From: Myxococcus dinghuensis | GTDB taxonomy: Bacteria > Myxococcota > Myxococcia > Myxococcales > Myxococcaceae | Reading direction: 5' to 3' | Length of the DNA stretch: 64,000 nucleotides | NCBI RefSeq assembly: GCF_024198235.1 | Contig: NZ_JAKCFB010000003.1 | Span: 434,001-498,000 of the forward strand | Part shown: one piece after another, positions 159 to 14,813 of the stretch | Layout of the letters: each line of letters starts with the position of its first letter | Numbering within the stretch: position 1 is the first letter of the stretch | The notes under the pieces: model-generated | What the model was told of the DNA's origin: nothing | Database searches by the model: none | Seen by the model: only the letters and a program-made list of their open reading frames with translations | Made by a program: the position numbers and the translations under genes

Positions 159-3100
159 TTATAGCTCATGCTCGAACGCCTTTTCCTGGGCGAGATTGTG
201 ACAGCGATGCTCGGTCGTAGGGAAGCGCCTGCTCACTTCTTGCAGCGCAGCCCGAGCCTGTCGCGCGCTTCGGAACTGCACGCCGCGCTGGAATTCCAGC
301 ATCAACTGGGCACATTGATGGTCCAGCTCGGCTGAAACCTGGGCGAGACGGTATCGAACGTCCTGGTAGAGGTCCGGCTTGGGGTCGAGCGCCTCCAGCG
401 TAATCCAGGCGAAGCGATACTGCTGCCAGGCCCGGAACAGGCTCTCCGCCCCTACCCCCCGAGTCTCATAGTAGCGCCCCGCCGTCGAGACGTACTCACG
501 CGCCTTGCTCAGCAGCTCCTCTGGGGGAAGCTCCGGGACGGGGAAGACCTCCAGGCGGAGGTTCCAGACGCGCCACGCGTCCTGACCTGGAGGGTTGTGG
601 ACGTTGTCGAAGACGAAGTGGTTCATCACCCCGCGCTTGAGCAGTCTCGCCGGGAGGATGACCTCCAGCTCGCGCTCGGCGGTGGAGAGCGTGTCCGGGG
701 GGATCCACCCGATATTCGCCCCGTTGAGGACCATGCTCACCTCTTCCGAGGCGATGCCGCTGGCCTGGTAGTGCAGCAGCGCGACGGCCCGGGTCGGCGC
801 CACGAACTGGAAGTCGAAGGACTTCTCGTCGGCGTGGACCCACTTCACACCTTCTCCCACACCGAAGGAGTCCACCACTGGCTCGACGCCCAGGGCCATG
901 GGCTCCAGTGCCCCGGCGCCCGAGGCCACCACCTTGCGGAACGCGAGGATCAACGCGCCACTCGCGACGCCCAGCACGAAGAGCGACACGGTGATGGCCA
1001 GGAGCCGGCGCGCCAGGGGGAGCGCGCGCCAGCCCAGGAGGAGCTGTCCCCACCTCGTGCTGGCAAGCTCCCGGCGTCTCCTGGCGAGCTCCGCGGCCGT
1101 GGGCGCCGCAGGAGCCTTCGCCGCGACCAATGCCGACGAGGTCGCGAGGCGAGGGACGACCTGGTGCGCTGGCGTGGGCGCGTCATCCGGCGCGGGAAGG
1201 GCCAGCATGCGCGGGGCCTTCGCCCGGGCGGGGGCGGCGATGAAAGCAGGAGCCACCTGGGGCGTGATGGCGTAGTCGGGCACTTCGCTGGCGATGGGTG
1301 CGCCCACGGTCGGTGGAACGTGAGCGAGGGTCGGCCCCTCGTCCCCTTCGCTGACCGGCGGTCCGACGCGCGCCACGCTCGGGGCGGGAACGTCGTCGAA
1401 GTCGGAGGCTCGCAGCGCGGGCGCGGGCGGAGTGCCCCCTGCGGTGAGTCCTTCGGGCCTCGTGGTGGGCGGGGCCGCCCTGCCCGTCGCCTGCGCGGTC
1501 AGGGGCGGAACCTTGATGTGGGTCGGTTCGTCGCCGAAGTCCGGAGGTGACAGTCCCCTGGGAGGCCCTGGAGGGGCCGCGGATGGACGAGAACCTGAAG
1601 GCCCCTGCCCCACGTCGACGCCTGGAGGGAACGCCGGAGGTACGGTCGCGGCGCCGAACATCCGCGTCGGGGACACCTTCGGGGCAGCGCTGGGAAGCGA
1701 GGCAGCGGAAGGGACGTTCTCGAGGAGATCGAACGTCTTCTCGGAGTCCGCGTCCGGACCGGCTCCAGACGACGCGCCAGCGCCCGCCCGCGAGGACGCT
1801 GCGACGGGCGCATCGGGGACGAGTGAGTTCTCGTCGGCGTCGGCCTCGTCCAGCAACATCGGAGGCAACGTCTGGTCGTCCTCCTCGACCCTCGAGCGAG
1901 TGCCCATGCGCGAGGACGCACCAGAGACACCCAGGTCCTCGTCGGCGTCCGCCGCCTCCAACGACATCGGAGGCAACGTCTGGTCGTCCTCCTCGACCCT
2001 CGAGCCAGTACCCACGCGCGGGGACGCACTGGGGACAACCAGGTCTGCGTCGACGTCGGACGCCCCCATGGACATGGGCGGCAACGTCTGGTCGTCCTCC
2101 TCGATCCTCGAGCCAGTGCCCACGTGAGAGGAGGAGGCGACGGGCGCATCGGAGACGACCGGGTCCGCGTCGGCTTCGGCCCCCCCCATGGACATGGGAG
2201 GCAACGTCTGGTCGCCCTCCTCGATGCTCGAGATGGCCGAGTCCGAGAGTTCCTCGACGCCCGAGACCTCCGACACTTCCTCCTCGGAGATTCGAGGCAG
2301 ACCTATCGACTGGACGCCCCGCTCCGCCGCGTTCGTGCGCTCGGGAAAGGACGTACTCGGAGACGGGCGCTCGGCCTCACGCCGAGCGAGCGCGGGCGAT
2401 GCGCCTTCGAGCGTGGGACGACGCGGGGGCTTGTCGCTGCCCGTCATGCCTCCGGGGGACGGGCTCACGGATACTGGCGCTGCGCTCAGGATGGGCGGAC
2501 CGCGCGGCGCGGCTCCGACAATTCCCGGCGAGCCAACACCGACGGGAGCTGGCCCACCCACTGCCGAGGGGGGCCGGCCGGCCGGCGACGCCGTGGGACC
2601 GCCTGGCGAGACAGGACCGGAACGCGGAGACTCCGCCGACACGCCCTGCCCGGCAGCAACCCCCACCTGCTTCACGGGAGCCACTGTCGGCGCAGACTTC
2701 GCGAGGACAGGGGCCTGTCCCGGCACGCCCGTGGGCCTCGCGACTCCAGGTGCTTGCGCGACACCGGCGCCAGCCGAGGGCGGAGTCGACAGACCTCCTG
2801 CGACAACACCACGGGGCATGCCTGGTACGGCGGGCACAGCCCCCGTCGCACTTCGCGAGGCCACGCTGGGCATGGGAGCGCCAGCAGCGCGTCCTTCGTG
2901 AGGAAGGGTCTTCGGCTCGGAGGAAAGAACGAGAGGGACGGACTTGGGCGCGGTGGGAGGCGCTACTGGCGGAGAACCCGCGCTCGCCGACACAACGGGG
3001 ATGGCTCTCGTCAGGGACGGCGCCGCCACGAGAACAGGGAAGCTGGTCGTCAGCGAAGGCTTCGGAGGGGGCTGCGTCGGTGGGACCGGCGGCTTCGCGA

Positions 3101-4334
3101 TGCCAGGAGCTGGCGAGACCACGTCTCGGGTGGGCTCGGGACGCGCCACCGTGCCAGGGACCAGGTTCTCCGTCCGCTCATCGAGCAATGGAGCCGAGAG
3201 CCCTCTCTTCGCGGAGCCCGGCTGCAACGTCTCGGTCCGCTCCTCGGGCGGGGGCACCGCGAACGGAACCGCGGTGTTCGAGGAACCCGCCACCCCGGGA
3301 GGACGCACGGGAGACAACTGGGCCAGCACCGCGGAGGGCGAGAGCATCGCGGTGCTCTCCTCGGGGTCATCCTCCGAGAACGGAGGGAGCGTCGACTCCC
3401 CCTCATCCGCGCCTCGAGGCCCCGTCGACGACGTGCGCTCCTCGTCCGTGAAGAGTCCCGGATGCGGCGCCCTCGGCTTGGGACCCTCGGTCGTCGGTCC
3501 ACGCTCCACCGTCGGACGCTCTACGGTCCTCGTCCGAGGAGTCGAGGCACCGTCTTCGGCAACAAGCCCCCGCGCCATGTCGGGGCGCGACTGCGCGGGA
3601 GTCGACGGCACCGGAGCTGGCGGCTTCGCGGGTGCGACCTTGCCCAGTTGAGCGAGCACCACCGCGGGTGCCAGCATCGCCGTGCTCTCCTCGGGGCCAT
3701 CGTCCGCCACCGGGGGCAATGCCGCCGCAACCGAAGCCACATCGAGTTGAGCCAACACCGCCGCGGGTGCCAGCATCGCCGTGCTCTCTTCGGGGCCATC
3801 CTCAGCGACCAAGGGCATCTCGGTCGCGGTCCGCTCCTCGAGCGCCTGCGCCTCCCGCGGAGAGGGGCCCTGCGCATCGCGCGGCCGCGTGGGCTTGGGG
3901 ACGGGAAACTCCACCGTGGGGCTGTACTCCTGCGGCGCCTCCATGCCGGGAGGCGGCCCCACCGCGATTCGAGCCGAGGGCCGCGACACGCCGCCGCGCC
4001 CTGCCTGCGACGACGCGAAGAACGTGAACTCCACCGCCCCGATGCCGACGCGGTCCCCATCCCCCACGGGCCGGGAGCCCTCGACGAGCACATCGTTGAG
4101 CGTGGTGCCGTTGGCGCTCCCCAGGTCTTCGAGGAACACCTGCCCGCCCCGAACGACGAGGCGGGCATGGAGGCGGGAGACACCGTGGTCGTTCAGCACC
4201 ACGTCGTTCTCCGAGGTCCGGCCGAACTTCAGTTCGGCCTGCTCGAAGACGAGTTCCCTCCCTGCCTGGGGACCGCGGGTGATGGCGAGCCGGAATGGCA
4301 GAGGAGCCCCCTCGACGTCACCCCGCGAGATCAC
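159..4334 (-). CDS. giant FHA-domain membrane protein of the Tad pilus locus
   Basis: A 1391-residue protein. An N-terminal FHA (phosphothreonine-binding) domain spans about 14-106 with the canonical residues G38-R39, S53, H56 and N75-G76. About 1000 residues of Pro/Ala/Ser-rich, probably disordered linker follow. It carries three copies of a PEESTAML-type motif, several ERTETL/DERTENL-type motifs and four EEDDQTLPPM repeats near 710-860. One membrane helix lies near 1112-1136. The C-terminal 250 residues look folded and helical, possibly TPR-like, and would be periplasmic if the linker is cytoplasmic. The GTG start overlaps the end of tadC by 17 bases, so it is translationally linked to the Tad inner-membrane genes. 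FHA proteins often read Ser/Thr-kinase signals; a role in controlling the pilus machine is inference. The function of the C-terminal part is unknown. Confidence 0.9.
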   Translation of the reverse strand: MISRGDVEGAPLPFRLAITRGPQAGRELVFEQAELKFGRTSENDVVLNDHGVSRLHARLVVRGGQVFLEDLGSANGTTLNDVLVEGSRPVGDGDRVGIGAVEFTFFASSQAGRGGVSRPSARIAVGPPPGMEAPQEYSPTVEFPVPKPTRPRDAQGPSPREAQALEERTATEMPLVAEDGPEESTAMLAPAAVLAQLDVASVAAALPPVADDGPEESTAMLAPAVVLAQLGKVAPAKPPAPVPSTPAQSRPDMARGLVAEDGASTPRTRTVERPTVERGPTTEGPKPRAPHPGLFTDEERTSSTGPRGADEGESTLPPFSEDDPEESTAMLSPSAVLAQLSPVRPPGVAGSSNTAVPFAVPPPEERTETLQPGSAKRGLSAPLLDERTENLVPGTVARPEPTRDVVSPAPGIAKPPVPPTQPPPKPSLTTSFPVLVAAPSLTRAIPVVSASAGSPPVAPPTAPKSVPLVLSSEPKTLPHEGRAAGAPMPSVASRSATGAVPAVPGMPRGVVAGGLSTPPSAGAGVAQAPGVARPTGVPGQAPVLAKSAPTVAPVKQVGVAAGQGVSAESPRSGPVSPGGPTASPAGRPPSAVGGPAPVGVGSPGIVGAAPRGPPILSAAPVSVSPSPGGMTGSDKPPRRPTLEGASPALARREAERPSPSTSFPERTNAAERGVQSIGLPRISEEEVSEVSGVEELSDSAISSIEEGDQTLPPMSMGGAEADADPVVSDAPVASSSHVGTGSRIEEDDQTLPPMSMGASDVDADLVVPSASPRVGTGSRVEEDDQTLPPMSLEAADADEDLGVSGASSRMGTRSRVEEDDQTLPPMLLDEADADENSLVPDAPVAASSRAGAGASSGAGPDADSEKTFDLLENVPSAASLPSAAPKVSPTRMFGAATVPPAFPPGVDVGQGPSGSRPSAAPPGPPRGLSPPDFGDEPTHIKVPPLTAQATGRAAPPTTRPEGLTAGGTPPAPALRASDFDDVPAPSVARVGPPVSEGDEGPTLAHVPPTVGAPIASEVPDYAITPQVAPAFIAAPARAKAPRMLALPAPDDAPTPAHQVVPRLATSSALVAAKAPAAPTAAELARRRRELASTRWGQLLLGWRALPLARRLLAITVSLFVLGVASGALILAFRKVVASGAGALEPMALGVEPVVDSFGVGEGVKWVHADEKSFDFQFVAPTRAVALLHYQASGIASEEVSMVLNGANIGWIPPDTLSTAERELEVILPARLLKRGVMNHFVFDNVHNPPGQDAWRVWNLRLEVFPVPELPPEELLSKAREYVSTAGRYYETRGVGAESLFRAWQQYRFAWITLEALDPKPDLYQDVRYRLAQVSAELDHQCAQLMLEFQRGVQFRSARQARAALQEVSRRFPTTEHRCHNLAQEKAFEHEL
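1861..2233. repeat. four imperfect tandem repeats inside the FHA gene
   Basis: Four copies of a segment beginning GGAGGCAACG (third copy GGCGGCAACG) start at 1861, 1969, 2077 and 2197, so the periods are 108, 108 and 120 bases (36, 36 and 40 codons). They are in frame and encode the EEDDQTLPPM repeat on the minus strand. The high nucleotide identity over the roughly 30-base core suggests recent tandem duplication or ongoing homogenisation. Confidence 0.8.
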
Positions 4335-5205
4335 CGAAGAAGAACTGGAACACGATGGGTCCGAAGAGGACCATGAACACGGTGGGGAAGATGCACGCGA
4401 TGAGCGGGAAGAGCATCTTCACGGGCGCCTCGCCGGCGAGCTTCTCCGCGCGCTGCGTGCGGTCGATGCGCATCTGCGTCGACTGGATGCGGAGCACCTT
4501 GCCGAGGCTCGTACCCATCTTGTCGGCCTGGATGAGCGCCGTGACGAACGTCGTCAGCGCCGGCAGGTCCACGCGGACGATCATGCTCTTGAGGCCCTCT
4601 TCGCGCGTCTTGCCCATCTTCAACTGCTTGAGCACCAGCTGAAGCTCCTCGCGCAGCGGGCCCGCCTTGCCCTTCTCCACCACCTTCGCCAGCGCGGCCG
4701 TGAAGTCCAGACCCGCCTCCACCGACAGCGTCAGGAGGTCGAGGTTGTACGGCAGCGCGCGGCTGATCTGCAGGTGACGCTTCTTCACCTGGTCGTTCAG
4801 CCACAGCAGCGGGTAGTACATGCCGAAGAGCAGGAACAGCACCGACCAGACCAGGTTCTGACCGAGCCCGTTCAGCATGAACAGGCCCATCAACAGGCCC
4901 ACCACGGCGCTCACTTCCTGCAGCGCCATCATGTCCTCGGGCTTGTAGCCCTGGGGCTCGCCCGCCTTGATGAGGTTGCGGCGCGACTTGGCCTCGTAGC
5001 TGGGCCAGATGAAGCGACGGTTGAACGCGCCCAGCCGGCGGATGGCCACCGAGCCGAAGCCCTTCATGCCGCCCGAAGACTCGTCGCGGACCTCCGACAA
5101 GAAGGTCTCGAACAGCGTCTGGTACAGGCCGAGCCCGAGGAAGCCCACCGCGCCCGCGAACAGGAGCGCTGAGCTGCCGACCAACACTTGCGTCAGGATG
5201 TCCAC
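4318..5205 (-). CDS. tadC: TadC, Tad pilus inner-membrane platform protein
   Basis: A 295-residue type II secretion F-domain protein. There is a membrane helix near residues 8-28, a pair near 97-135, the cytoplasmic T2SF helical domain at about 145-265 (conserved region SVEAGLDFTAAL) and a C-terminal helix ending GPIVFQFFFGDLAG. With TadB it forms the inner-membrane platform of the Tad/Flp pilus assembly machine, which is worked by the TadA ATPase (not in this window). The start is GTG at 5205, just downstream of tadB (10-base gap). The FHA gene begins inside its 3' end. Length and order tadB-tadC are normal for the family. Confidence 0.92.
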   Translation of the reverse strand: MDILTQVLVGSSALLFAGAVGFLGLGLYQTLFETFLSEVRDESSGGMKGFGSVAIRRLGAFNRRFIWPSYEAKSRRNLIKAGEPQGYKPEDMMALQEVSAVVGLLMGLFMLNGLGQNLVWSVLFLLFGMYYPLLWLNDQVKKRHLQISRALPYNLDLLTLSVEAGLDFTAALAKVVEKGKAGPLREELQLVLKQLKMGKTREEGLKSMIVRVDLPALTTFVTALIQADKMGTSLGKVLRIQSTQMRIDRTQRAEKLAGEAPVKMLFPLIACIFPTVFMVLFGPIVFQFFFGDLAG

Positions 5206-5215
5206 GGCACGTCCC

Positions 5216-6061
5216 TCAGATATCGATGTTGACGATGCGGCGGATGATGAGGATGCCCATCACTTCCATGATGGCGATGATCACCACGAGGATCCACCCG
5301 AAGTAGTGGTCCATCATGGGCTCCATCAGGTCCGGTCGCATGTAGTTGAGCACCATGCCCAGCACCGCGGGCATCGCCGCCACGATCCACCCCTGCAGCT
5401 TTCCCTGCGAGGTGAGCGCGTCGATCTTGCCCTCCAGGCGGAAGCGCTCGCGAATCACCGTGGAGATGGTCTCGAACATCTCCGCCATGTTGCCGCCCAG
5501 TTGGCGCGCGATGTTGGTGGACACCACCACCAGCTCCAGGTCGTCGCTGCCCACCCGGCGGCCCATGTTGATGAGCGCCTCTTCCAGGGGAACGCCCAGC
5601 TTCACTTCCTTCACGAAGAGGCCGAACTCCTGGGACAGCGGAGCCATCGCCTCGCGCGCCACGTGCTCGATGGCCTGCGGGAAGGTCAGACCCGCCTTGA
5701 ACGCGTTGGCCATGGCCTGCAGCGCGTCCACCAACTGCACGTTGAACTTCTTGATGCGGCGCTTGCGGTAGTGCTTGACCATCAGCATCGGCAGGAAGAA
5801 GCCGAACACCGTCGCCAGCACCGCCAGGATGGGGTTGAAGATGATGTACGACAGGATGCCCAGCAAGCACATGCACGCGATGTTGAGGACCAACATCTGG
5901 CGCGCATCGATGAAGAGGAACATGTCGCTCAAGTCGTTCATCGACTTGGCGACGTAGCGCTCCTGGTACTGCTCATACGCCTTCGACAGGACGCTGAAGA
6001 TCACCAGGCTGAAGAAGAAGACCGAGCCGGTGACGAGTAGGAGAACGATACCTGCGAACAT
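5216..6061 (-). CDS. tadB: TadB, Tad pilus inner-membrane platform protein
   Basis: A 281-residue type II secretion F-domain protein, paralogous to TadC. There is an N-terminal membrane helix (about 4-25), two helices near 58-95, the T2SF domain at about 112-235 with the typical AFKAGLTFPQAIEH segment, and a C-terminal hydrophobic hairpin ending RRIVNIDI. Its known role is in the Tad pilus platform with TadC. It starts with ATG at 6061, 39 bases after cpaB and 10 bases before tadC, in one transcription unit. Confidence 0.93.
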   Translation of the reverse strand: MFAGIVLLLVTGSVFFFSLVIFSVLSKAYEQYQERYVAKSMNDLSDMFLFIDARQMLVLNIACMCLLGILSYIIFNPILAVLATVFGFFLPMLMVKHYRKRRIKKFNVQLVDALQAMANAFKAGLTFPQAIEHVAREAMAPLSQEFGLFVKEVKLGVPLEEALINMGRRVGSDDLELVVVSTNIARQLGGNMAEMFETISTVIRERFRLEGKIDALTSQGKLQGWIVAAMPAVLGMVLNYMRPDLMEPMMDHYFGWILVVIIAIMEVMGILIIRRIVNIDI

Positions 6062-6100
6062 GCGCGCGGTTCCCTCTGGGCAGCCGTGGGCGTGCGCCGG

Positions 6101-6916
6101 TTACTGAGCGCCGGCGGCGGCGGCCTTGTCGCTGCCACCCTTGATGATCTGGATGATCTCCCGGCGCTTGATCTCCAGCACGCGGGTACGCTCGCCGGAC
6201 AGCAGCGTGCTGATGGTGGCGCGGCCGCGCTCCTCGATGAGGTCCACGTCGTCCTCGTTGCGCAGGCTGAGCGTCAGCGCGCCGAGCTCCGTCGCGAGCA
6301 CCAGGATCTCCGCCTCCTCGGGCAGCACCATCAGCGACACGTTGTTGTAGTCGCGCTGGCCCTCGGGGATGAGGTTCACGTTCGTGGTGCCGGTGATCTT
6401 GCCCGTCGCCACCACGATGATGTTCTGCAGCAGCGTCACGCCGACGTTCTCGTCCGTCTGCGGATCGCGGAACGTGCCGATGATGTCCACGTGGTCGTTG
6501 GGGCGGATCCAGCCACCGACGGCCGTGGTGTTCTTGGCCTCGATGGTCATCGCGCGCATCTTCTTCTGCACCTTCGACGACAGGCGCTCGGCGGCCTTCG
6601 TCGTCTCGAACTGGCTCCACAGCAGCGGGTCACCCGCCTGCAGGGCCACGAGCACCTTCTGGTTCACCACGTACGACGCGGAGTCCGGACGGACGACCGA
6701 CGAGGTGACGAACTGCTCCGGCACGGAGCGCTGGGAGATCATCTCGAAGGTGATGACGGTCCCTTCCGGGATGTCCTGCGCGGCCACGACGACCGGCACC
6801 AGGTTCCAACCGCGACGTACGTCCGCCTCCTTCTTCTTGATGGCGGAGTACGCGATGACGCCGGCCAGAAGGCCGAGCACGAGCGCGACGACGAGCGGAG
6901 TCTTGCCCTTCAACAT
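6101..6916 (-). CDS. cpaB: CpaB/RcpC-type Flp pilus assembly protein
   Basis: A 271-residue protein. A membrane anchor at about 8-25 is followed by an SAF domain (about 40-105, including VVVAAQDIPEGTVI) and a RcpC/CpaB C-terminal domain with the family motif GGWIRPNDHVDI near 135-148. CpaB works in the periplasm with the outer-membrane secretin of the Tad system. The ATG at 6916 is preceded by GGAGG at good spacing. It is the first gene of the cpaB-tadB-tadC-FHA unit, with a likely promoter about 110-140 bases upstream. The C-terminus is Ala-rich. Confidence 0.92.
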   Translation of the reverse strand: MLKGKTPLVVALVLGLLAGVIAYSAIKKKEADVRRGWNLVPVVVAAQDIPEGTVITFEMISQRSVPEQFVTSSVVRPDSASYVVNQKVLVALQAGDPLLWSQFETTKAAERLSSKVQKKMRAMTIEAKNTTAVGGWIRPNDHVDIIGTFRDPQTDENVGVTLLQNIIVVATGKITGTTNVNLIPEGQRDYNNVSLMVLPEEAEILVLATELGALTLSLRNEDDVDLIEERGRATISTLLSGERTRVLEIKRREIIQIIKGGSDKAAAAGAQ

Positions 6917-7023: not shown

Positions 7024-7053
7024 ATGTTAGCCGTCCAATACAGCGGGTGTCAA
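7024..7053 (-). promoter_or_regulatory. candidate sigma-70-type promoter of the cpaB-tadBC-FHA operon
   Basis: On the minus strand a perfect -35 hexamer TTGACA (7053-7048) is followed after 18 bases by TAACAT (7029-7024, 4 of 6 match to TATAAT). It lies between a hairpin at the end of the upstream lipoprotein gene and cpaB, leaving a leader of about 100 bases. Placement supports it; transcription from it is inferred. Confidence 0.5.
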
Positions 7054-7991: not shown

Positions 7992-8738
7992 TCAGGGAAT
8001 ATTCGAAGAGGGGGTCGGAGGCGCCGCGGGCAGGTCGGGGTTGTAGAGGCCGCGCAACACCAGGTCCTGGCCCCGGTCATCCGGCAGCAGGGCGGGTTTG
8101 CCTCCCTTCAGCCCCACCATCCGCAGGCTGAAGCCGATGCCGTCCGGCGTCACGAAGGCCCAGAGGGTGCCTGGAATCATCGGCTCCGGCTTCGCCTCCT
8201 CGGACTCCAGCCACTTGAGCTGCATGGGCAGCGGCTTGAAGTCCTGCGTGCGGAAGACGTCGTCACGAGGCGTCGCGTTCGCCAGCGCCTGTTGCCAGGC
8301 GGAGGGCTCCACGGGCACCTCTCCGTGGGCCTGGAGTTCTTGAATCATGGTGAGGTGGACGCGCCGGGCGACCCGCAGGATGGCCAGGTTTCCGGACTCC
8401 TCGGAGCGGTTCTCCATCAGCCCCCGCCCGTTGCCGCCCGCCACGGTGCCCGCCACGCCCAGCAGCACGACGGCGGAGGCCCACAGCGGGGCCGAGCGTC
8501 CACGCAACAGCGCGAGGCCGATGGCCAGCCCCCCCACCGCCGCGACCACGGCCCCCGCGAGCAGCGGCACCCGGGGTGCCGCGCCCGCATGGAACGGCTG
8601 GTTCAGCGCCAGCAACAGGTGCTCCCACTCCGGCCGCGCCACCACCAGCACCCCCGCGGTCATCGCGAGGAAGATGACCGCATGAATCAGGCGCAGCGCC
8701 AGAGGCGAGCGCGCCGCGGCAACGCTTCGGGTCGTCAC
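7992..8738 (-). CDS. membrane protein of the Tad minor-pilin operon
   Basis: A 248-residue protein with three predicted membrane helices in the first 105 residues (about 17-35, 57-80 and 87-103), then a soluble domain of about 140 residues (begins RSEESGNLAIL, ends PTPSSNIP). The GTG start at 8738 overlaps the stop of the small pilin gene as GTGA, which indicates translational coupling. The soluble region contains MIPGTLWAFVTPDGIGFSLR, probably a small alpha/beta domain outside the membrane. Family not recognised; a local role in pilus assembly is inferred from the operon. Confidence 0.75.
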   Translation of the reverse strand: MTTRSVAAARSPLALRLIHAVIFLAMTAGVLVVARPEWEHLLLALNQPFHAGAAPRVPLLAGAVVAAVGGLAIGLALLRGRSAPLWASAVVLLGVAGTVAGGNGRGLMENRSEESGNLAILRVARRVHLTMIQELQAHGEVPVEPSAWQQALANATPRDDVFRTQDFKPLPMQLKWLESEEAKPEPMIPGTLWAFVTPDGIGFSLRMVGLKGGKPALLPDDRGQDLVLRGLYNPDLPAAPPTPSSNIP

Positions 8739-8962
8739 GGGAACGGCAGGTTCAGCACGAAGTAAAAGGAGTCGTAGTAGATCTGGTACGACTGCATGAA
8801 CAGGTCGATGACGTTGGACTGCACGTCATCCGTCCACCGGATCTTCACGGACGCGCCGATGATGAGCGCGACCACGAGCACCCAGTTCAGGATGGAGTAC
8901 TCGACCATGGCCTGCCCACGGGGGGCGCGGGCGCGCGAGCGCGGCGTCTTCATGGAGTTCAT
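8735..8962 (-). CDS. small Flp/TadE-type pilin-like protein
   Basis: A 75-residue protein, MNSMKTPRSRARAPRG then QAMVEYSILNWVLVVALIIG. A Gly is followed by Q-A-M-V-Glu-Tyr, so Glu is at +5 and Tyr at +6 of the would-be mature form, matching the processing motif of type IVb Flp pilins and TadE-like pseudopilins. A single helix (about 21-40) and an aromatic C-terminal tail (SYQIYYDSFYF) follow. The ATG at 8962 overlaps the upstream stop (ATGA) and its own stop overlaps the next start (GTGA). It is a candidate pilin or minor pilin cut by the TadV/CpaA prepilin peptidase; no such peptidase is in view. Confidence 0.78.
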   Translation of the reverse strand: MNSMKTPRSRARAPRGQAMVEYSILNWVLVVALIIGASVKIRWTDDVQSNVIDLFMQSYQIYYDSFYFVLNLPFP

Positions 8963-9774: not shown

Positions 9775-10586
9775 CGCCCCTTGCCCTCCGCCTTCGCCTT
9801 CGCCTTCTGCTCCTGCTCCCACGCCTCGCGGCTCTTGCGGACCGCGTCGTCGTTGGGAACGGCGTCGATGCGATCCGAGCCCACCCACGTCTGCACCACC
9901 GCCGTCATCCCCTCGTCCACCTGGGACAACGTGGTCATCACCTGCTCGCCCTTGCGCGCGTGCTCCATGGTCACCTGTGTGGTGCCTCCCAGCTTCGTCG
10001 CCGTGTGCCGCACTGGCTCGAAGCCCTGGCGCGTCAGCTCCCCGGACACCCGCTGCTGCACGTCCGACAGGTCACCCGCCACCAGCGACGTGCGGTTCTG
10101 CGAGCCACCCGGGTCGTCCCGCGTCGCCAGGTCCTGGCTGTAGACCGTGCCCTCGAGCTTCACCAGCCCCTTGGGCGCCGCCTTCGGAGGGCGCGTCCAC
10201 AAGTCCCGGAGCGCGGTGAAACCCACCGTCTTGCCCTGGTGCATGCGCAGCACGACGCCGCGCTGGAGTCCTTCGCGCGTGAAGAGCGCGGAAACCACCG
10301 CCTCCTCCTCCAGGTCCCCTTCGACGACCGTCGGATAGCCCTCGTCCCGCCACTTCTGGGCGAAGTACGCGGCCACCTTCTTCATGGGGTCCGTGGTCGT
10401 GAAGTACGCCAGGCGGTAGTACTCGCCGCCAATCACGAGGTCGCTGCCGATGCGCGTGTGGAGGGTGCCCGGGTACACGGGCAGCTCCTGCTCGGCCGCC
10501 GCTGGCGTCGCCGCCAGCAGCACGAGCAGGAGCAGGCCTCCCAGCGCGCTACTGCATGCAGCGGATCTTGTCGTCCTGCTCGTCAT
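9771..10586 (-). CDS. exported protein of the minor-pilin operon, unknown
   Basis: A 271-residue protein. ATG at 10586 (MTSRTTRSAACSS) is chosen because a signal peptide follows directly (about 14-31, ending AATPAAAEQ); upstream in-frame sequence lies inside the TadE-like gene in another frame. The mature protein contains LPVYPGTLHTRIG and YFTTTDPMKKVAAYFAQKW, the latter resembling repeats found in myxobacterial exported proteins, and ends in a Lys/Ala/Glu-rich helix. No enzymatic motif is seen. It overlaps the TadE-like gene by 38 bases and the next gene by 4. Confidence 0.78.
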   Translation of the reverse strand: MTSRTTRSAACSSALGGLLLLVLLAATPAAAEQELPVYPGTLHTRIGSDLVIGGEYYRLAYFTTTDPMKKVAAYFAQKWRDEGYPTVVEGDLEEEAVVSALFTREGLQRGVVLRMHQGKTVGFTALRDLWTRPPKAAPKGLVKLEGTVYSQDLATRDDPGGSQNRTSLVAGDLSDVQQRVSGELTRQGFEPVRHTATKLGGTTQVTMEHARKGEQVMTTLSQVDEGMTAVVQTWVGSDRIDAVPNDDAVRKSREAWEQEQKAKAKAEGKGR

Positions 10587-11724
10587 GGCTCGTGGCCTCT
10601 TGCGGGCCCGTTCCGTCAGAAGGGTCGTCCGCCATGGCCTTCTTGCAGCCCATGAAGTGCGGACCCCGTGCCTGGAACAGCTGGATGTAGGCGCTCTTCT
10701 CGTACGACATCTCGTCGCGGAAGGGGGCGGTGTCGAAGCAGTCGGGGCGGTCATGGTCCAGCAGGTCCCTCATCGCATGCAGACCGCTGCTGGCTGTCGC
10801 ATCGTAGGTGGTGAGACCGTTGCACTTACTCTTCTGCTGGGGATCGATACCGTAGTTGCGCGCCACGACAAAGGTGCCGAAGAAGTTCGGCAGGAAGCTC
10901 CCCAGGAAGTCGAGCACACCGCCGATACCCAGGCCCGACATCACGTTGCCCAGGCCGAGGAACTTCATCCGGCCCACCTGCTCGTAGATGCCGTGGGGCT
11001 GGCTGCCCGAACGGTGGTTACCCGCGCGGCGATCCCGAACCACCGCATCGCCACCGTCCGGCATGTGCCAGCCGTTCGCGTACATGGAGTACTTCGCCTT
11101 CAGCGGGATGCTGGCCAGGTTCTGACCACCGAACGTGTCCGACTTGAAGAACCCGCCGGGACCGGTGCCCTCGTCCAGGTAGCTCTTCGGGAGGATGACG
11201 TTCTCGAAGTTCATCTGGACGGCGGACTCCACCCAGCCCTTGTTGTTGAAGCCCCACGTGTTCAGCAGGGCCCCCGCGCCGCCATTGACGGCGCCGAGGA
11301 TGGCGCCAGCGAAGCCGCCGCCCTCGCTGGTGCTGCCGGGGAGCATCCCGGACTCGATGAAGGGGATCTCCTTGTTGGTGATGGTGCCCTGCACGCCGGA
11401 GTAGCGGACGATGAGGCCCGCCAGGGGCGCGTTGGGCTCCACGGAGTCCATGTCCTTGAAGCGCTCGATCAGCTCGTCGCTGGTCTCCTTGCGCGCGACC
11501 TCGAAGGCCGAGTCGTGGTTGCCCTTGGCGAAGTCGGACAGCGTGTAGCTGGTCATCTCCCAGACGGCGTAGCGCGCCATCTCCTGGAGCTTCAGCTTCG
11601 CCCTCACCAACTCCGTGAGGTACATGCTGAACATGAGGATCATCACGAGGACCGGCACGGAGAGCGCGAACTCGACCGTGGCGGCACCTCGACGGGACCT
11701 CTGGCGAATCTTCGGGGAGCTCAT
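10549..11724 (-). CDS. TadE-like minor pilin / pseudopilin
   Basis: A 391-residue protein. After a basic N-terminus (MSSPKIRQRSRRG) comes AATVEFALSVPVLVMILMF, a Gly followed by Glu at +5 and Phe at +6, the TadE processing pattern, with a membrane helix at about 18-38. The long soluble C-terminal domain has Cys residues near the end. TadE-type pseudopilins are needed for Tad pilus assembly and sit at the inner membrane. At 391 residues it is longer than typical TadE proteins (about 150-200). It lies 8 bases after the TadG-like gene. Confidence 0.82.
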   Translation of the reverse strand: MSSPKIRQRSRRGAATVEFALSVPVLVMILMFSMYLTELVRAKLKLQEMARYAVWEMTSYTLSDFAKGNHDSAFEVARKETSDELIERFKDMDSVEPNAPLAGLIVRYSGVQGTITNKEIPFIESGMLPGSTSEGGGFAGAILGAVNGGAGALLNTWGFNNKGWVESAVQMNFENVILPKSYLDEGTGPGGFFKSDTFGGQNLASIPLKAKYSMYANGWHMPDGGDAVVRDRRAGNHRSGSQPHGIYEQVGRMKFLGLGNVMSGLGIGGVLDFLGSFLPNFFGTFVVARNYGIDPQQKSKCNGLTTYDATASSGLHAMRDLLDHDRPDCFDTAPFRDEMSYEKSAYIQLFQARGPHFMGCKKAMADDPSDGTGPQEATSHDEQDDKIRCMQ

Positions 11725-11732
11725 CGCAGTCC

Positions 11733-13790
11733 TCAGTGGGTGATGATCTTGGAGCCCAGGCCCTGGATGGGACCGGGGAGCGCGTCAATCATCGGACCAA
11801 TGGCCGGCAGCTGGTTGCGCCCCTGGAACACGGAGGCCAGGCGCGGGCGCCAGTACGGGTTGAAGAAGTTCGGCTGCTCCGTCCAGTTGCCCGGGCGGTG
11901 GTAGTACGTCTGGCCGCGCGAGATGACGTTGAGGCCCTCGACGAGGCTCAGGAACTTCTTGCGGTTGTTGAGCATCTCCAGGCCCTCGGTGTCGGGCGTG
12001 AAGGCGAACTTCACCTTGCCTCCGTCGTTGAGCAGCGCGGGAGCGTTGGTCCCCGTGCCATCGACGTTGCCCTTGTTCACGATCTCGTCCGGCGACTTGT
12101 TCAGCGCCACCCAGGCGGAGGGCTGGTTGAAGTCCTTCTCACGCGTCTCCACCTTCTGGATGTTCGCGTTCGAAGTGGGGTTGCAGAACTTGTCGTTGTA
12201 CTGGCCGGGCTCGAAGTGCATGAAGGGCGTCACGCCACCCCACGGGTGGTTGCCGTCCTGGGCGGGGCGCACGTTGGCCGTGTACACGCTCACCTTGAAC
12301 CAGCAGATCAACAGCTGGAGGACGCAGACCTTCTCCTCGTGGATGCCGACCTGGCGCTCGGGGCCGCTCGGCGCGCGGTGGTTGCTCCAGCCCTCGCTGT
12401 TCTGCGGGTAGTGGATGCGCCAGTGCACGCCGCCCTTCTTCGAGCCGGAGTCCGTGTCGTTGAGCGCCCACACGCTGGGCTTCATCGTGGCCTGGAAGGG
12501 CAGCTTGGTGCTTCCCTTGTCGTTGAGGCCCTTGCGGTTGTCGCCGAAGCAGCGCGTGTACGGGTCCTTGTTGTTGCAGGACAGCGGGTTGTCCGCCTTG
12601 CCCACGCCCACGTCGATCTCCGCGGGGCCGAGCTTCAGCCAGTAGAGGTCGTCGGCGCCCATGTTGTCGCCCTGCGCCGTCATGCCCCAGGGGTAGAGGT
12701 TGTCATTCCAGTCGCGGATGTAGTTGCGCGAGTTGATGACGTTCTGGGCCCTGGGGAACGTCGCGGACAGCATGCGCGTCTGCCCCATCTTCTTGAACTC
12801 CATGATGCCGGGGGCGTTCACGCCGTTGTTGAGCATGTCGCGCAAGAACCCCAGCGCGTCCGGCAGCGGGAGGACGTCACCCAGCTCACGCGAGGTGGTG
12901 AAGCGCTCCGGGCAGATGCCACCAGAGTGGTCACACGCGTAGCGCGTGCCGTTGGTGATGCCACCCATCGAGCGCTTGGCGCGGGCGATCGGATCGTTCG
13001 CATCCTTCTTCGTCACGTCCAGCGCGCCGAAGGGGTTCTTCCACGTGCCCGGATTGAGGGGCTTGCCACCCGCGGCGCCGCTGTGCGCCTGGCTGAAGAG
13101 ACACTGGCTGTAGATACCCGTCGCCAGCTGGCTCGCCATCGAGTTCAGGTTCTTGTCGTTCGCGTCGAGCACGCCCTGCGTGGTCTGCGTCACGTGCGTG
13201 GACGCGGACATCATCACCGCCTGGGACGCGAAGTAGAGCACGCCGTTGAGCACACGGTGCGCGGGGATCAACATCCTGCCGATGATCCTGTCCGGGTTCG
13301 CCGCCTTGATGACCTGCTGGAGGGGCTGGAGGAACGCCGTCTTGTAGAGCGACATGATCTTGTTGACGGCCTTGATCACCTGCCCCACATACGGAACCAC
13401 TTCGAGGATCGGACACAGGACGATCCACAGCTTCTTGCGTTTGCCCGCGCACGGGTTGAGCGTCTTCATGAACCCGAACAGGTCCGTGAAGAACGCCTCG
13501 GCGGAGTAGATGAGCGACAGCAGCGAGTGCCACATCATCGCCGACACGTAGTGCGAGACCTGGGTGCGGTTCGCGTACGCGTAGAAGTTGAAGGCGCGCG
13601 CCTCCATGGCCGCCATGGAGTATGCGGCCGCGTCCGAGGTGTTCTGCAGACGCACGCGCTCCGTGACGGTGTGACCGATGTTGACCGTGGTCAACACCGC
13701 GATGGACATCACCAGGACCATCAAGGCGGCCAGGATGAGGGCCTGGCCTTCCTGACGGCGGAAGCTCTGTCGGAGGATCTGGGTGAACAT
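11733..13790 (-). CDS. TadG-like pilus assembly protein
   Basis: A 685-residue protein with the TadG-like N-terminal pattern RRQEGQALILAALMVLVMSIAVLTTV (helix about 15-38) followed by the typical VTERVRLQNTSDAAAYSMA segment. The large soluble part (about 60-685) contains several Cys pairs (for example CKRKK-like and CFGDNRKG regions) and no von Willebrand motif that can be seen. TadG proteins anchor or assist pilus assembly in the periplasm. It sits between two TadE-like genes, 15 bases after the upstream one. Confidence 0.85.
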   Translation of the reverse strand: MFTQILRQSFRRQEGQALILAALMVLVMSIAVLTTVNIGHTVTERVRLQNTSDAAAYSMAAMEARAFNFYAYANRTQVSHYVSAMMWHSLLSLIYSAEAFFTDLFGFMKTLNPCAGKRKKLWIVLCPILEVVPYVGQVIKAVNKIMSLYKTAFLQPLQQVIKAANPDRIIGRMLIPAHRVLNGVLYFASQAVMMSASTHVTQTTQGVLDANDKNLNSMASQLATGIYSQCLFSQAHSGAAGGKPLNPGTWKNPFGALDVTKKDANDPIARAKRSMGGITNGTRYACDHSGGICPERFTTSRELGDVLPLPDALGFLRDMLNNGVNAPGIMEFKKMGQTRMLSATFPRAQNVINSRNYIRDWNDNLYPWGMTAQGDNMGADDLYWLKLGPAEIDVGVGKADNPLSCNNKDPYTRCFGDNRKGLNDKGSTKLPFQATMKPSVWALNDTDSGSKKGGVHWRIHYPQNSEGWSNHRAPSGPERQVGIHEEKVCVLQLLICWFKVSVYTANVRPAQDGNHPWGGVTPFMHFEPGQYNDKFCNPTSNANIQKVETREKDFNQPSAWVALNKSPDEIVNKGNVDGTGTNAPALLNDGGKVKFAFTPDTEGLEMLNNRKKFLSLVEGLNVISRGQTYYHRPGNWTEQPNFFNPYWRPRLASVFQGRNQLPAIGPMIDALPGPIQGLGSKIITH

Positions 13791-13805
13791 GGTGCGGGCT
13801 TCCTC

Positions 13806-14813
13806 TTACATGCCCCAGTCGGGGTTGAGGTGCATGACCCACTTCCGGTGGAAGTTGGACTGCATGCGCATGGTGTATGTCGAAGTCAGCGGGATGAAGT
13901 AGCGCTTGCCCACGAGACTGGAGACGAGGGGGATGCTGCCGGTGGCGAGCCCCCAGAGGACCCACATCTCCGCGGGGTACATCGAGTCGTAGCCCTTCTC
14001 GTGTTCGATGCCCTTGCCCAGCGCCGCCAGGGGCGTGATGTTGCCATCCGCCATCATGTTGGCCTTGGGGACGATCGTCGCGCGGTCGATGGCGCCATGG
14101 AGCGCGACCTTCGCGTTGGAGGCGTACCACGCCGTGAAGATGATCCAGTTCGCGAACGGGATCTTCATCTCGTAGAAGTAGCGCAACCGGATGGTGAGGC
14201 GCGTGGCCTTGCGGTAGACGATCTCCGAGTCGTCCGGCTCCGGCAGGTTGAAGAACTTGCGGATCTTGTTCTCCAACGAGGGGACTTCCGGGAAGCTGTC
14301 GGCGCCGTCGAAGTCGAGCTCCTGCCAGTTGTAGCCCGAGCGCAGCTTCCAGATGGTGTCGATGGGCGTGAAGTACGCCGGGTTGATGGTGTCCACGCGG
14401 ATGAGGCCGAACAGGTTCGAGCCGTTCACCGTGCGCGGCACCACGCCACCACCGAAGTTCAGCGTGCGCATCGCCGAGTCGTAGATCTGGTGGATGGCGA
14501 AGGTCTTGGCCAGGTTGCCGATGTCGTCGGTGCGGCCCAACGTCGGCAGCAGCGCGACGATGGCCGCGTCATGCATGCGCTCGTTGTTGCCGTTCCAGAC
14601 GATACCGGCTCGCGCCGCCTGGTACGCGGCGTACTCGGTCATCAGCTTGGCGTGCTGGATCAGCGTGAGCTGGATGATCCCCAGCGTCATGAAGACGGCC
14701 AGCGGCATGATCATCGCCGCTTCCACCGCCGCCTGGCCAGATTGCCTTCCGGCCGCCCCCCGCGACCGCGAGTCTCGTTCCTGTCCCATGCCACCCATTA
14801 TCCCGATCGCCAC
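13806..14813 (-). CDS. TadE-like minor pilin, first gene of the operon
   Basis: A 335-residue TadE-family protein. The segment SGQAAVEAAMIMPLAVFMTLGI places Glu at +5 after Gly and forms the membrane helix; LTLIQHAKLMTEYAAYQAARAGIV follows, typical of TadE. A long soluble domain carries further C-terminal sequence ending HLNPDWGM. The start is uncertain: GTG at 14813, ATG at 14798 or ATG at 14789; none has a clear ribosome site. It heads the pilin operon, 78 bases downstream of the anti-sigma gene on the same strand, so control by that sigma factor is possible. Confidence 0.83.
   Translation of the reverse strand: MAIGIMGGMGQERDSRSRGAAGRQSGQAAVEAAMIMPLAVFMTLGIIQLTLIQHAKLMTEYAAYQAARAGIVWNGNNERMHDAAIVALLPTLGRTDDIGNLAKTFAIHQIYDSAMRTLNFGGGVVPRTVNGSNLFGLIRVDTINPAYFTPIDTIWKLRSGYNWQELDFDGADSFPEVPSLENKIRKFFNLPEPDDSEIVYRKATRLTIRLRYFYEMKIPFANWIIFTAWYASNAKVALHGAIDRATIVPKANMMADGNITPLAALGKGIEHEKGYDSMYPAEMWVLWGLATGSIPLVSSLVGKRYFIPLTSTYTMRMQSNFHRKWVMHLNPDWGM

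Follow-up and report, generated by a model that had tools for sequence, protein, structure and literature searches.

A giant membrane-anchored FHA protein encoded with the Kil predation pilus genes of Myxococcus dinghuensis, a candidate phosphothreonine scaffold

Myxococcus must sense its prey and build the Kil pilus precisely at the site of contact, and a locus of Myxococcus dinghuensis in which genes of a Tad-like pilus adjoin the gene of a giant FHA protein may bear on how it does so. The window, that is, the whole 64,000-nucleotide stretch analysed here, lies on contig C48 of the 10.4-Mb genome. On its minus strand, kilB (cpaB/rcpC, 6101–6916) is followed by the genes of the inner-membrane platform, kilG (tadB, 5216–6061) and kilH (tadC, 4318–5205), and then by the giant FHA gene, whose longest open reading frame starts at a GTG and encodes 1391 residues (159–4334). 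This order, already described in the earlier note, was confirmed by profile matches. Indeed, kilB matched RcpC, SAF and TIGR03177 (the latter with 194 bits against a cut-off of 71 bits) and is the sole RcpC match in the genome, while kilG and kilH matched T2SSF with 62 and 67 bits, respectively. Large open reading frames over 159–4376 on the other strand and in other frames were interpreted as shadows of the giant gene, which is GC-rich. The minus strand also carries a second FHA gene (1–124), which begins at position 124, extends past the window edge to C48:432380 and encodes a 581-aa protein with an FHA domain, a helix and TPR. Further upstream of kilB, we called a Flp-like small pilin gene (8735–8962, minus strand; RGQAMVEYSI), by position the kilK equivalent, from sequence inspection and gene order; it had no Pfam match at E 0.001. 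Beyond it lie genes of TadE/TadG/TadF-like minor pilins (10549–14813, minus strand) with TadE, Tad and TadE domains, which are the equivalents of kilM4, kilN4 and kilL4 and follow the same kilM4-N4-L4 order as in Kil (PMC12075869).

Judged from gene content and order, the kilB-kilG-kilH-FHA genes correspond to cluster II of Kil, the Tad-like pilus system that Myxococcus directs against prey. In M. xanthus, Kil is split in two (MXAN_3102-3108 and MXAN_4648-4661), and the core Kil genes and kilD were shown to be needed for contact-dependent prey killing (PMC8460266). The same split was found here. None of the T2SSE (ATPase) matches of the genome lies on C48, so that the "Tad core genes" of the earlier note are present as kilB, kilG and kilH but form an incomplete set. 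The missing parts lie together on contig C80, which carries an FHA-fused T2SSE ATPase (KilF), a secretin, a Peptidase_A24 protein (type IV leader peptidase) and a KilD-like protein with two FHA domains and TPR; cluster I (kilA, kilC, FHA-kilF and kilD) is thus located on C80. A further FHA fragment sits at the end of this contig beside kilA, and the FHA domains of KilF, KilD and this fragment are all intact. Since gene set and split both match Kil, a generic adhesion Tad pilus was ruled out, and the adhesion phenotype that had been expected of a deletion is probably the wrong one because this pilus serves predation. In locus L133 (M. xanthus AM003), the gene order is identical, with an FHA open frame of 486 aa. 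From this order we infer that the giant FHA gene is the positional equivalent of MXAN_4649, the next gene of MXAN_4648. MXAN_4648 is given as the cluster boundary in three papers, and these do not name MXAN_4649. The main text of the eLife study on Kil describes deletions of predicted Tad components and of KilD, and a search of that main text found no test of this FHA gene.

Three side observations concern Kil proteins and records elsewhere. The KilD-like protein at L078 8117–10351 (two FHA domains, TPR) carries a hydrophobic stretch, KKLFVVGGAVVGLLVVAGIAK, that resembles a transmembrane helix, and KilD has been described as predicted cytoplasmic. Outside both Kil clusters, a 105-aa frame of the window's genome has a weak Flp_Fap match (C103:100504-100614) and might encode the major pilin KilP. 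Lastly, a Myxococcus-type Kil cluster also appears under the name Comamonas sp. KCTC 72670 (L129), in a genome record that is probably mislabelled or mixed.

The proposal that the pilus genes and the giant FHA gene form one operon holds in that the genes adjoin, but the unit continues into the 581-aa FHA gene at position 124. A putative promoter of the kilB-kilG-kilH-FHA-FHA unit (TTGACA, 18 bp, TAACAT; 7024–7053, minus strand) lies in the gap before kilB, and no other sigma70-like match occurs in 15.5 kb. As 0.8 such matches are expected by chance, its weight rests on conservation: a TTGACAC + (T)AACAT-like box was found upstream of kilB in 14 relatives that span Myxococcus and Archangium-type loci and whose flanks diverge. 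In the relatives L087 and L090, the minor pilin genes are oppositely oriented and the genes from kilB through the second FHA gene are still together, which argues that this set is a natural unit.

The 17-base overlap of the GTG with tadC, as reported before, is true for the longest open reading frame, but a start further downstream appears likelier. The GTG at 4334 has no Shine-Dalgarno sequence, whereas a CTG codon (4301–4299) is preceded, five bases upstream, by a Shine-Dalgarno-like GAGGGGG (4313–4307; the whole element at 4299–4313, minus strand). Of 22 distinct relatives, 17 have CTG at the homologous codon and three have GTG, the latter being M. xanthus-type genomes; two, which represent the paralogue, have ATG. 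An in-frame ATG, GTG or TTG start is absent in 11 of the 22. The giant FHA gene therefore probably starts at the CTG at 4301, which would give a product of 1380 aa. A non-standard CTG start with a Shine-Dalgarno sequence appears to be kept for this gene in many Myxococcaceae.

A check for the FHA gene beside tadC across Myxococcota, as suggested in the earlier note, was positive: it directly follows kilG-kilH in 32 of 40 loci from many Myxococcota families and lies 7 kb apart in one. The remaining seven loci comprise five extra copies (in the window's own family), one locus near a contig end and one without tad genes. For the genome-contig scan, a closer nine-row alignment was used instead of the too-diverse 40-row one. 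A single query detected the C-terminal periplasmic domain in 131 of 195 Myxococcota genomes, and a search with an alignment raised this number to 136. Counting by hand, with a Kil-type KilB defined by a match of E 1e-25 or better and the domain by 1e-10 or better, we found both in 133 genomes, KilB only in 3, the domain only in 2 and neither in 57, so that the domain is present in 133 of the 136 genomes with a Kil-type KilB (Fisher p 6e-43 with genomes treated as independent, a statistic that kinship inflates). Phylum-wide synteny and co-occurrence rule out a chance gene neighbour and, taken at the level of gene content, make the giant protein a conserved part of the Kil machine. In one family of the same order (G031-G054), CpaB matches were weak at most and the periplasmic domain of the FHA protein was not found; this family appears to be without Kil.

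The extra copies in the window's family adjoin unrelated genes in the cases examined, or minor-pilin genes in L093 and L096. In these two loci (L093 10042–11856 and L096 6726–8591), the copy stands beside TadE/TadG/TadF-like (Tip) genes, as if there were one scaffold per Tip set. A paralogue with the same periplasmic domain (~530 aa in relatives) and without tad genes nearby was seen at L117 8788–10359 and, in the window's genome, at C36:177664-178377; it adjoins open reading frames that, named from sequence inspection, are WYL-type regulator, phospholipase D-like and aconitase-like.

The FHA domain of the giant protein (residues 36–99; 4038–4229, minus strand) matched PF00498 with 60.4 bits (cut-off 20.7), and the region scored slightly higher, with 61.8 bits, against PF16697, the YscD cytoplasmic domain. 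The nearest solved FHA domains are those of GarA (E 1.3e-13) and OdhI, in a range of E values from 1e-13 to 4e-11. The phosphothreonine-contact residues that the earlier note had listed (G38-R39, S53, H56 and N75) are indeed present and near-invariant: G38, R39, S53 and N75 are found in 38/38 family members and H56 in 37/38. All five are likewise kept in 27/27 of the second FHA proteins. The phosphothreonine pocket is, by its residues, intact, and phosphothreonine binding is predicted.

A single predicted transmembrane helix (residues ~1111–1130; 945–1004, minus strand) follows a conserved basic juxtamembrane segment, with eight Arg/Lys before and two after it, and more Arg/Lys before than after the helix were counted in 37 of 40 family members. 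One hydrophobic helix and this positive-inside pattern support the previously proposed topology, in which the N-terminus would be cytoplasmic and the C-terminal ~260 residues periplasmic. For the C-terminal 239 residues, AlphaFold2 predicted with a mean pLDDT of 90 a fold of eight strands followed by five helices, that is, an 8-strand beta-sandwich and a helical part (162–878, minus strand). No Pfam family reached its cut-off with this domain of the window's protein, and among solved structures a profile search found nothing beyond weak matches to helical repeats. In structure comparisons of the model, the helical half is TPR-like, while the beta-sandwich half resembles BcsB (VIA Z 9.2, rmsd 3.4 over 109 residues) and CBM35/36 (Z 7–8 over ~100 residues), with several beta-sandwich families nearly tied; neither BcsB nor CBM35/36 matched the domain at the sequence level in Pfam or PDB searches. 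The modelled fold leads us to suggest that the periplasmic end might bind sugar or peptidoglycan.

Between the FHA domain and the helix lies a Pro/Ala/Ser-rich linker of ~1000 residues (1023–4016, minus strand). Across relatives this segment varies from ~40 to ~1040 residues, being ~40–300 in most and 650–710 in some lineages, and a length of ~1000 was seen in the window's species and its closest relative; with an M. xanthus open frame of 486 aa, the giant size is, as far as these comparisons go, the result of recent linker expansion. The window's linker contains 11 [DE][DE]xT motifs, at T169, 185, 218, 301, 328, 367, 388, 750, 786, 822 and 938. Three of these sites are supplied by a tandem repeat with a 108-bp (36-aa) unit in 3.6 copies (1830–2232, minus strand), each copy of which carries (E/G)DQTLPPM or DDQTLPPM and of which the closest relative has one clear copy. 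In the linkers of the family, [DE][DE]xT occurred 58 times versus 4.8 expected (500 composition shuffles, maximum 12), and the Ser version of the motif 14 times versus 7.4 expected. Because the motif had been picked after viewing the linkers, we retested it on held-out relatives, which are related sequences, and found 45 versus 2.4 expected (Ser: 2 versus 3.0). The excess was absent in the controls, namely the other genes of the window (8 versus 10.8 expected) and genes at eight further FHA loci (3 versus 4.0 expected).

The array is not universal, since [DE][DE]xT is missing from many distant orthologues, and most relatives have one or two sites or none. Many relatives do carry a DEDATRPIRR-like or STRIV-like site behind the FHA domain; DEDATRPIRR directly after the domain is kept in Myxococcus and Pyxidicoccus relatives, and the downstream FHA protein has a Thr site, NSTMMV, close behind its own. 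In the window's protein, the juxta-FHA site has decayed to VSRPSARI and the array has grown. The linker looks disordered, is probably cytoplasmic and is studded with likely phosphate-acceptor Thr sites. Together, the phosphothreonine-contact residues and the Thr-specific acidic motifs fit phosphothreonine signalling.

As for the kinase, a local one was ruled out at either Kil cluster: the nearest PF00069 matches on C48 lie ~46 and ~57 kb from cluster II, and none was found on C80, the cluster I contig. The "local kinases" that had been proposed as binding partners to try are therefore not there. Among the papers listed by a literature search for the M. xanthus phosphoproteome, no dataset on the giant FHA protein was found.

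With middling confidence, we propose that the giant protein is an inner-membrane phosphothreonine scaffold of the Kil pilus, the phosphorylated linker of which would be bound by FHA partners after prey contact. Prey contact would activate a Ser/Thr kinase, which would phosphorylate linker threonines; these could then be bound by the FHA domains of the KilF ATPase, KilD or the second FHA protein, or alternatively, in cis or trans, by the FHA domain of the giant protein itself. Binding would gather the ATPase at the KilG/KilH platform, and the periplasmic domain would tether the complex to a part of the envelope (KilB/KilC or peptidoglycan). In M. xanthus, the place of prey contact is where NG-KilF, KilG-NG and NG-KilD collect. 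NG-KilD still forms foci when the Tad apparatus is not functional, an observation that its authors interpreted as upstream signalling (PMC8460266) and that leads one to expect such a signal. Against the scaffold reading count the finding that neither cluster has a linked kinase gene, the many distant orthologues free of [DE][DE]xT, the tandem origin of three of the 11 sites, and the paralogue that stands apart from tad genes. The window's species has multiplied the sites into a long array. More tentatively, the linker might act as a multivalent membrane array, in which prey contact leads to phosphorylation of the repeated sites, several copies of KilF, KilD and the other FHA protein dock through their FHA domains, the machine concentrates, and the number of sites tunes sensitivity by species. 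As the same authors proposed FHA-based signalling in Kil in 2021 (PMC8460266), the general idea is not new; the specific handles added here are the Thr array, the linkage across the phylum and the periplasmic domain. One conserved membrane protein pairs an intact phosphothreonine reader with a Thr-specific, acceptor-like array and offers testable residues, and its periplasmic domain co-occurs with Kil-type KilB throughout Myxococcota.

The same layout of a single helix, a cytoplasmic FHA domain and a folded periplasmic domain, the strict linkage to kilB-kilG-kilH and the slightly better fit of the FHA region to PF16697 than to PF00498 would also be explained if the protein were an SctD-like structural adaptor that takes part in assembling the Kil envelope complex and whose FHA domain holds a fixed partner without gating. 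We regard this as possible, if rather doubtful: phylum-wide retention of the phosphothreonine-contact residues would be unexpected were phospho-binding dispensable, the motif enrichment is Thr-specific, and the SctD/YscD model of type III secretion (TIGR02500) was not reached (20.4 versus 86 bits). That the best solved-structure relatives are GarA and OdhI, and that many relatives, like the downstream FHA protein with its NSTMMV, have a Thr site close to the FHA domain, brings to mind a self-switch, in which the FHA domain binds the adjacent phosphothreonine (DATRPIRR or STRIV) and closes the protein without recruiting a partner. This is unlikely for the window's protein, in which just that site decayed (VSRPSARI) while the distant array grew, and such a switch needs no array of 11 sites.

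Even less probable is a neutral origin of the linker through slippage and tandem duplications within a GC-rich gene, with acidic-Thr motifs that serve no function. The 108-bp repeat and the wide range of linker lengths would be expected from such a process, but the motif threonines are better kept than others when compared with the closest relative (9/11 versus 16/53), identity is 65% in motif windows and 47% in the remainder, distinct motif variants recur in several lineages, and no such enrichment was seen for Ser, for other genes or for other FHA loci. The reading of the protein as a phosphothreonine scaffold is the one we keep.

Several known systems were compared with the giant protein. 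GarA and OdhI are small soluble metabolic regulators of mycobacteria and corynebacteria; they share with it the closest solved FHA domain and a Thr motif near that domain, whereas its FHA domain is membrane-anchored and joined to a periplasmic domain. Scores against specific models stayed below their thresholds, with 47.2 versus 200 bits for the OdhI equivalog (NCBIfam), 44.8 versus 120.25 bits for TagH of type VI secretion (TIGR03354) and 27 versus 650 bits for the gliding protein GltG (NF033760). Fha/TagH, which acts with PpkA in type VI secretion, is likewise the FHA protein of a contact weapon, and Agrobacterium Fha is described as binding phospho-TssL and activating secretion (PMC3953482); Kil, however, is a different machine, with no kinase in the cluster. 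SctD/YscD of type III secretion has the same succession of a cytoplasmic FHA-like domain, one helix and a periplasmic domain, but in the giant protein the FHA pocket is intact and the periplasmic part is predicted to be a beta-sandwich with helices. The closest counterpart is Kil of M. xanthus, which, like the window, has kilB-G-H, minor pilins and FHA genes in one cluster and kilA, kilC, FHA-kilF and kilD in the other; the difference lies in the linker, which measures 111 residues there and ~1000 here, an approximately ninefold expansion that carries the acidic-Thr array.
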